Shown here one piece after another: positions 32,358 to 34,772 of a DNA stretch of 64,000 nt. Source of the stretch: Candidatus Uabimicrobium amorphum (GTDB lineage: Bacteria; Planctomycetota; Uabimicrobiia; Uabimicrobiales; Uabimicrobiaceae). The stretch lies in assembly GCF_009002475.1 (NCBI RefSeq), contig NZ_AP019860.1:7516501-7580500 (forward strand), given 5' to 3'. Below the pieces are notes generated by a model. That model made no database searches and had not been told where the DNA came from. It worked only from the letters and a program-made list of their open reading frames with translations. The number at the start of each line of letters is the position of its first letter. The stretch's first letter is position 1. A program made the position numbers and the translations under genes.

Positions 32358-33590
32358 ATGAGATACGTTTTGTGTCTATCAATATGTGTTTTTATGTTAC
32401 TGGGCTGTTCCGCAAATTTGCCTAAACCTAAATTTCCCCAAAAAGAAACCGCCACCGATGTGTCCCAACAACAAATAGATGCTTTGGTAACAGGAAACAA
32501 TACTTTTGCGTGGGAACTATACAAAAAGTTAACCACCGAACAAAAAAATGTATTTTTTTCTCCATATAGTATTTCGACCGCTTTGGCAATGACATATGCA
32601 GGAGCAGCGGGTAATACCGCCCAACAAATGCAAAAGACTTTGCACTTTCCCTCCACAAATCCACACCCCTCTTTTTCGGCACTCATAGATGCCACGCAGC
32701 CGACAAATGCACTGTACAAACTATATGTTGCCAACGCGTTATGGGGACAAAAGGACTATGATTTCTTGCCAGAGTTTTTGCAAACAACGGGAAAAAACTA
32801 CGGTGCCGGGTTATTTGAAGTCGATTTCAAAAAAGAAACGGAGCAGGCGCGAAACACGATTAATCACTGGGTCGAACACAATACACAACAAAAAATAAAG
32901 GAATTACTTAAACAAGGAACCATCAAAGACAAAACACGCTTGGTGTTGACAAATGCTATCTATTTCAAAGGCGACTGGTTACATCCATTTGATGCCAATG
33001 ACACCTATGATCAAACATTTCACTTAAATAAAAGCGAAAACGTACAGGTGGCGACGATGTCACAAAATGAACGAGCCTTTCTACATTACCAACAACCAGA
33101 TTTTCAAGCGGTGTCTTTGCCTTACAAGGGAGAAGAAGTCGAAATGATTATTTTTCTGCCAACAGAAATTGATGGTATCCAAACCATCGAAGCGCAACTC
33201 ACCGCTGAAAAAGTAGCGAGTGTTAGAGGAAAGATGGAAAGAAAGAGTATGATGCTAGCACTGCCCAAGTTTAAAGCAGAATCAGAGTTTGAATTGGGTG
33301 AAGTACTTGAACAATTAGGGATGCAAGATGCATTTACCGAAGGTGTAGCTGATTTTTCCGAAATGACAACAGAGGAGCGCTTGTTTATCTCCAAAGTTGT
33401 ACACCAAGCCGTCGTCAATGTCGACGAAAAAGGTACAGAAGCAGCTGCGGCAACAGGTGTTGTCATGAACGCAGAAAGTGCTGTTATGGTAGATGTGCGT
33501 TTTATCGTCAACCGTCCCTTTGCGTTTGTGATATCCAATGCAAAAACCGGCAGTGTACTATTTGCAGGTCGTATTGTCGATCCACGCTAG
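32358..33590 (+). CDS. Lipoprotein serpin (serine/cysteine protease inhibitor)
   Basis: 410 residues. A lipoprotein signal peptide ends in LLGC (Cys17), so the inhibitor is tethered to a membrane facing outward. The serpin fold is complete: NVFFSPYSISTALAMTYAGA near the N-terminus, LTNAIYFKGDWLHPF, and the breach/shutter signature NRPFAFVISN. The reactive-loop hinge EKGTEAAAAT (357-366) has the small residues needed for loop insertion, so it should be inhibitory. Counting 17 residues as in antitrypsin puts P1-P1' at Glu373-Ser374 (NAE-S), or the adjacent Ala, which would suit a Glu-specific or elastase-like protease. The target may be its own or a foreign protease. Confidence 0.95.
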   Translation: MRYVLCLSICVFMLLGCSANLPKPKFPQKETATDVSQQQIDALVTGNNTFAWELYKKLTTEQKNVFFSPYSISTALAMTYAGAAGNTAQQMQKTLHFPSTNPHPSFSALIDATQPTNALYKLYVANALWGQKDYDFLPEFLQTTGKNYGAGLFEVDFKKETEQARNTINHWVEHNTQQKIKELLKQGTIKDKTRLVLTNAIYFKGDWLHPFDANDTYDQTFHLNKSENVQVATMSQNERAFLHYQQPDFQAVSLPYKGEEVEMIIFLPTEIDGIQTIEAQLTAEKVASVRGKMERKSMMLALPKFKAESEFELGEVLEQLGMQDAFTEGVADFSEMTTEERLFISKVVHQAVVNVDEKGTEAAAATGVVMNAESAVMVDVRFIVNRPFAFVISNAKTGSVLFAGRIVDPR

Positions 33591-33828: not shown

Positions 33829-34620
33829 TTAGCGTTTTACCATTTTGCTCAATGCTTTTTGTAATTTCTGCGAAAGCCCATACTGATCTAATTCTTCCTG
33901 TAAAAGCTTCTGTGTACCATCGCCACCAACATACCCATTGAGTCGCGCCGCAACAGTAGAATTGACAAAATCAGAAAAATGGGGGTAGTAATCGTGGAGC
34001 TCTTTTGCCATCGACTTGCGATTTTGCAACCAGTATTTTTGGTGGTAATCTTCCGCAACATAAAATTCCCCCACCGGCAAAATCGCGGTTTTAATCTCTC
34101 CTGTTTTTGCAAACGCTTTACTAGTTTCTACCGCTTGCTGTTGTTGCTGTTTGTCATGATAAAAAACCGCAGGTCTATACTGAATGGACCATGACGGTCG
34201 ACATGGATTATGACTTTTCCAAAAAATATTCAATAAATCCTCATAGGAAATAACGTTTGGATCGTAATCGACCTGAAACGCTTCGGTGTGATCTCCCATC
34301 CTTTGATATGTAGGTGACTTTGTTGTGCCACCGCAATATCCAACACGTGTGCGAAAAACGCCTTTGATGCTACCAAACTGGGCATCTGGTCCCCAGAATC
34401 AGCCCAATGCGAAAGTAGCGGTGTGCAATGTTTCCGGGATACTAGCATCTAAAGGTGGTATGTTTTGCGAAACTTTTTTACTGGTTAAAAACATTCTCTT
34501 TCCTTTCGTAGACGACACTTGCTGTTTTCTTTCCTGAATTGTAGAAGTGTTTGTTCGCGTATTATCACAGCTCAACAGAAACACTATACAGAAAACCCAT
34601 AAAATTTTTTTTGTGGACAT
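33829..34620 (-). CDS. msrA: Peptide methionine sulfoxide reductase A, probable selenoprotein, lipoprotein
   Basis: 263 codons from ATG at 34620 (GAGGTG six bases upstream) to the stop at 33829, in one frame with a single interruption: TGA at 34401-34399 (codon 74). The surrounding residues read ATFALG-TGA-FWGPDAQFG; in MsrA the position is the catalytic Cys of GCFWG, so TGA probably encodes selenocysteine. Downstream the frame is intact: GYCGGTTKSPTY, MGDHTEAFQVDYDP, FWKSHNPC, QYRPAVFY, and ARLNGYVGG, the features of the GDHTE subgroup. The N-terminus has a lipoprotein signal ending FLLSC (Cys18). The enzyme would repair oxidised methionine in the envelope. A simple nonsense mutation is the main alternative, but no other decay is visible. 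Confidence 0.82.
34366..34386 (-). promoter_or_regulatory. Candidate bacterial SECIS hairpin in msrA
   Basis: On the transcript, starting 12 bases after the UGA: GAUGC, CCA, loop GUU, UGG, bulged UA, GCAUC. This gives an 8-bp stem with G first in the apical loop, 20 bases from UGA; both agree with the published general model for bacterial SECIS elements. A competing fold pairs UUGGGC just before UGA with GCCCAG. The structure is predicted by eye only. Confidence 0.5.
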
Positions 34621-34772
34621 TTTTTCACCTCTTTTTCATTACACTGTGAGTCACAGAATTTACAAATTTCTCTTTTAGTCTCGAAAAAGTAGATTTCCTT
34701 ACTCCTATTTTGTAAATTTTGAACCATGTGTGCTAAATGCCACAAACATCTATATTTATACAGTGACCACAA

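Follow-up and report, generated by a model that had tools for sequence, protein, structure and literature searches.

An msrA-like reading frame of Candidatus Uabimicrobium amorphum, a member of the Planctomycetota, is interrupted by a single TGA at the codon where methionine sulfoxide reductases of the MsrA type have their catalytic cysteine. Is this codon read as selenocysteine, or is the gene broken? We addressed the question in a stretch of 64,000 nucleotides around the gene (the window), in the complete genome and in relatives of the gene from other bacteria. Judged by its sequence, the gene very probably encodes a real selenoprotein, and the family to which it belongs is known. Taken as a whole, the explanation that almost certainly applies is a selenocysteine-inserting MsrA of the Clostridium oremlandii type, which would be exported and most likely lipid-anchored. 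The features concerned, in window coordinates, are:

33829..34620, (-) strand: msrA, predicted selenoprotein methionine-S-sulfoxide reductase, 263 codons including the UGA (frame, profile and structure matches)
34399..34401, (-) strand: in-frame UGA, putative selenocysteine codon 74, catalytic position (frame, alignment, relatives)
34012..34422, (-) strand: MsrA catalytic domain PF01625, residues 67-203 (profile match)
33865..33963, (-) strand: C-terminal helical domain PF20939, residues 220-252 (profile match)
34567..34620, (-) strand: predicted lipoprotein signal peptide, lipobox LLSC, Cys18 predicted as lipid site (sequence and pattern match)
34626..34631, (-) strand: GAGGTG, likely ribosome-binding site (sequence, by eye)
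34366..34386, (-) strand: SECIS-like hairpin GAUGC-CCA-GUU-UGG-UA-GCAUC, positions 16-36 counted from the U of the UGA

Reading frame and domains

The frame runs from 34620 to 33829 on the minus strand, and the TGA at 34401-34399 is the sole interruption of its 263 codons, in agreement with a preliminary description that had seen one frame, undecayed apart from this codon. The same description placed the UGA at the catalytic cysteine, and the alignment bears this out: the motif at codon 74 is LG-U-FWG, the catalytic position of MsrA. The good ribosome site that it had noted corresponds to GAGGTG, five bases upstream of the ATG at 34620, as identified by eye. The range it gave, 34366-34620, spans no more than the first third of the gene. 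Since the TGA splits the gene under the standard code, the list of open reading frames contains just a 156-amino-acid fragment from an inner ATG at 34299; a standard call would yield this truncated protein, and the full frame corrects the annotation.

With the TGA translated as a residue, the protein is recognised by PF01625 (E 5.8e-42) and by PF20939, the profile for the helical domain of selenoprotein MsrA (E 9e-7; 29 bits, cut-off 23.7), and its match to TIGR00401 exceeds the cut-off of that family. The MsrA-like part also has a weak match to NCBIfam NF041383 (Trx_VPGUxxT_two, thioredoxin-like (seleno)protein). Its 38.6 bits are far under the cut-off of 275, and another locus of the genome (L144), which has no in-frame stop, is a true member of NF041383.

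The selenoprotein MsrA family of bacteria has been studied by experiment (PMC4479559, PMC13188914). The best matches among solved structures, 4U66 and 4LWJ (E about 5e-60), are those of CoMsrA from C. oremlandii OhILAs, which aligns over residues 64-258, likewise consists of a catalytic and a helical C-terminal domain, and shares the motif GxFWGPDAQFG, natively with selenocysteine (PMC4479559). In the alignment the UGA coincides with the catalytic residue of CoMsrA. CoMsrA dimerises via this residue and is recycled by glutaredoxin rather than thioredoxin (PMC4479559). The two proteins differ in two respects. The catalytic residue 16 is the only Cys or Sec of CoMsrA, whereas the window protein has two extra cysteines, C96 and C140, and so may not be strictly of the 1-Cys type; and the window protein has a lipoprotein signal, for which CoMsrA, with its catalytic residue at position 16, leaves no space. 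Across the family G73, W76, E113 and Y192 are 99-100% conserved. Cysteine occurs at residue 140 in 28 of the 113 members with the helical domain, and 56 of the 113 have no further cysteine in the MsrA part. The cysteine at residue 140 (motif HNPC, window 34201-34203) may have a resolving role in this family, which has been described as 1-Cys.

N-terminal signal and location of the enzyme

The N-terminal sequence MSTKKILWVFCIVFLLSC-DN agrees with a lipoprotein signal by a PROSITE-like pattern, with a K-K n-region, an uninterrupted hydrophobic core and a lipobox cysteine. The lipoprotein signal proposed in the preliminary description is plausible, and it is not peculiar to this gene. Among 104 family sequences with a TGA, a crude filter applied to predicted starts found a lipobox in 28, another hydrophobic N-terminus in 47 and neither in 29. 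The degree of novelty formerly attached to the membrane-anchored form is not supported: a hydrophobic or lipobox N-terminus is common in the family.

A real selenoprotein might still be cytoplasmic if the start codon is wrong, or if an uncleaved anchor leaves the enzyme facing inwards. The second UGA-containing MsrA of the same genome, a paralogue of 219 amino acids, has no signal peptide, as is the case for the 29 family members that the filter left without one. Set against this location are the ribosome site ahead of the ATG at 34620, the complete set of signal elements in the window protein, the similar N-termini of distant family members, and the lipoprotein-like N-terminus of the Cys-type MsrA of this genome. 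We consider a cytoplasmic window enzyme unlikely.

In an exported enzyme, the reading that we prefer, the N-terminal signal would take the protein across the membrane, with a lipid anchor most likely at Cys18; the selenol would reduce methionine-S-sulfoxide in exported proteins and would then be recycled by a thiol reductant. The frequency of signal-like N-termini suggests that much of the selenoprotein MsrA family resides outside the cytoplasm. The chances seem evenly balanced that the type is mainly extracytoplasmic, with most members exported and many of them lipoproteins, and that in this genome a lipoprotein and a cytoplasmic form share the work. Should this be so, oxidised methionine would be repaired outside the cytoplasm by selenium chemistry. 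The glutaredoxin of CoMsrA is not expected there, which turns the recycling of the selenoenzyme in that compartment into a testable question.

The reviews and the survey consulted cover bacterial selenoprotein MsrA yet name no lipoproteins or signal peptides (for the 2022 review this concerns lipoproteins only), and a literature search combining selenoprotein MsrA, lipoprotein and periplasm returned nothing to the point. The predicted export is the one aspect of the gene that carries some novelty. The selenoprotein type itself is already known in bacteria, common and curated (Pfam PF20939); new here are the host lineage, by which the window gene would extend selenoprotein MsrA, and the note of frequent signal-like N-termini in the family.

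Selenocysteine machinery and conservation of the UGA

The preliminary description proposed a search for selA, selB, selC and selD, and all four are present in the genome, a single contig of 9,503,417 bases. We detected a tRNA-Sec with a TCA anticodon (67.5 bits), SelA (494 bits), SelB (364.5 bits, in a frame of 642 codons) and SelD (394 bits). SelD carries a UGA of its own within GAGUACK, the usual selenocysteine site of this protein.

MsrA is encoded three times in the genome: one gene has TGT, and each of the other two has a single TGA. The second UGA gene (L011 1453-2112; G000:C1 7344582-7345241) encodes the paralogue without a signal; it is 45% identical to the window protein, and the two have the stretch TATFALGUFWGPDAQFG in common. 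It is directly flanked by short-chain-dehydrogenase-like and glucosamine-6-phosphate-deaminase-like genes, named by eye. The canonical MsrA (L009, G000:C1 3646138-3646596) resembles the window protein in fold, catalytic position and lipoprotein-like N-terminus, and differs from it in the TGT at the catalytic codon, a shorter C-terminus and its place in the tree.

Relatives with the helical domain were collected from about a dozen phyla. The catalytic codon is TGA in 109 of 111 loci and TGC in the other two, so the UGA that the preliminary description suggested looking for in related genomes is shared to an extent that is not due to chance. The 111 loci are drawn from two collections, one from sampled genomes of the phylum and one of 80 loci from named genomes of Planctomycetota, Chloroflexota, Nitrospirota, Bacillota, deltaproteobacterial lineages, Actinomycetota, Synergistota, Acidobacteriota, Calditrichota, Rokuibacteriota and KSB3. 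They include the two genes of this genome, and a few genes occur in both collections, so that 104 distinct TGA sequences remain. One peptide pattern used in the scan contained Cys (TGY), which could bias the collection only towards Cys forms and not towards TGA. In a quick tree the split between 113 helical MsrAs and canonical MsrA has 99% support. Two Pirellulaceae genes are grouped with the window gene (moderate support), and L011 with L047, a UGA gene from another genus of the same family.

If the TGA were a nonsense mutation that had killed msrA, at most the 156 codons from the inner ATG would still be made. The standard code does split the gene in this way; the recurrence of this TGA in 109 of 111 relatives and in a second gene of the genome, the complete selenocysteine machinery and the lack of a second lesion make a pseudogene extremely improbable, and we reject it. 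An error of sequencing or assembly that hides a true TGT or TGC would need a single base, and three Cys forms do exist in the helical family (L068, L124, L133). Such mistakes would not hit the same codon repeatedly, and the TGA occurs in two separate genes of the genome and in almost the whole family; we reject this explanation too, as having hardly any probability. A genome-wide reassignment of UGA to another amino acid has nothing in its favour beyond the open frame and is rejected as just as improbable, because TGA terminates 5 of the 35 long open reading frames in the window, the machinery is complete and SelD has its UGA at the usual site.

The selenoprotein reading also agrees with the distribution of the gene in the phylum. 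UGA-MsrA (a long match of more than 190 bits with an in-frame TGA) was found in 36 of 392 sampled Planctomycetota genomes, and a TGC form in one. The type is thus frequent in the phylum, and with the published work on the family this leaves the degree of novelty suggested for a planctomycete unsupported. In this sample, by hand count, selA is present in 33 of the 36 genomes with UGA-MsrA vs 212 of the 356 others (Fisher p 9e-5), and the three that have no selA are incomplete MAGs. Shorter MsrA matches with one internal TGA and no helical part occur in G284, G374, G316, G275, G370, G074, G243, G132 and G013; these may represent a second UGA-MsrA group or chance stops at the frame edge.

The genes adjoining the window msrA encode a serpin, a DUF2805 protein, ChaC and an amidase, with no evident link to it. 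MsrB, recognised by eye from sequence, adjoins msrA in nine family loci, in keeping with methionine sulfoxide repair; it is absent beside the window gene and, neighbours of close relatives aside, is the only neighbour that recurs in the family. The serpin (PF00079; window 32358-33590, plus strand), convergent to msrA, has a lipoprotein-like N-terminus of its own.

The hairpin downstream of the UGA

A stem-loop whose loop begins with G, 20 bases past the UGA, had been noted in the preliminary description, and the family confirms it. Taken by itself, the window gene gives a weak signal: the stretch folds with -7.2 kcal/mol, and 5% of synonymous versions fold as well. RNAfold on 56-75 bases of this gene gives no significant result (z -0.07 and -0.5), so that the single sequence could not have revealed the hairpin. 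The window hairpin lies off the common register of the family: its glycine codon is GGU rather than GGG, and a bulge of two bases is required.

For the family, the codons after the UGA were swapped for synonyms drawn by the usage of the same gene, in 500 resamples. In the register with stem 16-23/27-34 and a GUU loop, 79% of cells are paired vs 52% expected from the resampling (z 19.3, the highest of 25 registers); none of the 500 resamples is as good, and local folding beats the mean of the synonymous versions in every one of the 104 genes, which are related and hence not independent. Some other registers deviate too, in both directions, as expected from codon choice fixed by the main hairpin and from ancestry. 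Our initial guess (pairs 16-36 to 20-32 plus the apical three) was weaker, at 68% vs 57%, and was rejected in favour of the common register, 16-34 to 23-27. Pair 23-27 is G-C or A-U and pair 19-31 is U-A or G-C. A SECIS-like hairpin after the UGA is conserved in the family, and its signal is strong.

SelB bound to this hairpin just past the UGA would deliver Sec-tRNA, so that residue 74 would become selenocysteine and translation would not stop. The earlier judgement of a probable selenoprotein is favoured by the machinery, the aligned UGA, the relatives and the hairpin alike. The three Cys forms of the family, too small a number for statistics, differ in what they keep of the hairpin: L068 retains most of it, L124 has lost the G at position 30, and L133 has lost both this G and the loop G, the latter as expected for a TGC gene that no longer needs SelB. 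L133 (genome G170) and L134 (G056) belong to one genus and have different codons at the catalytic position, TGC in the former and TGA in the latter.
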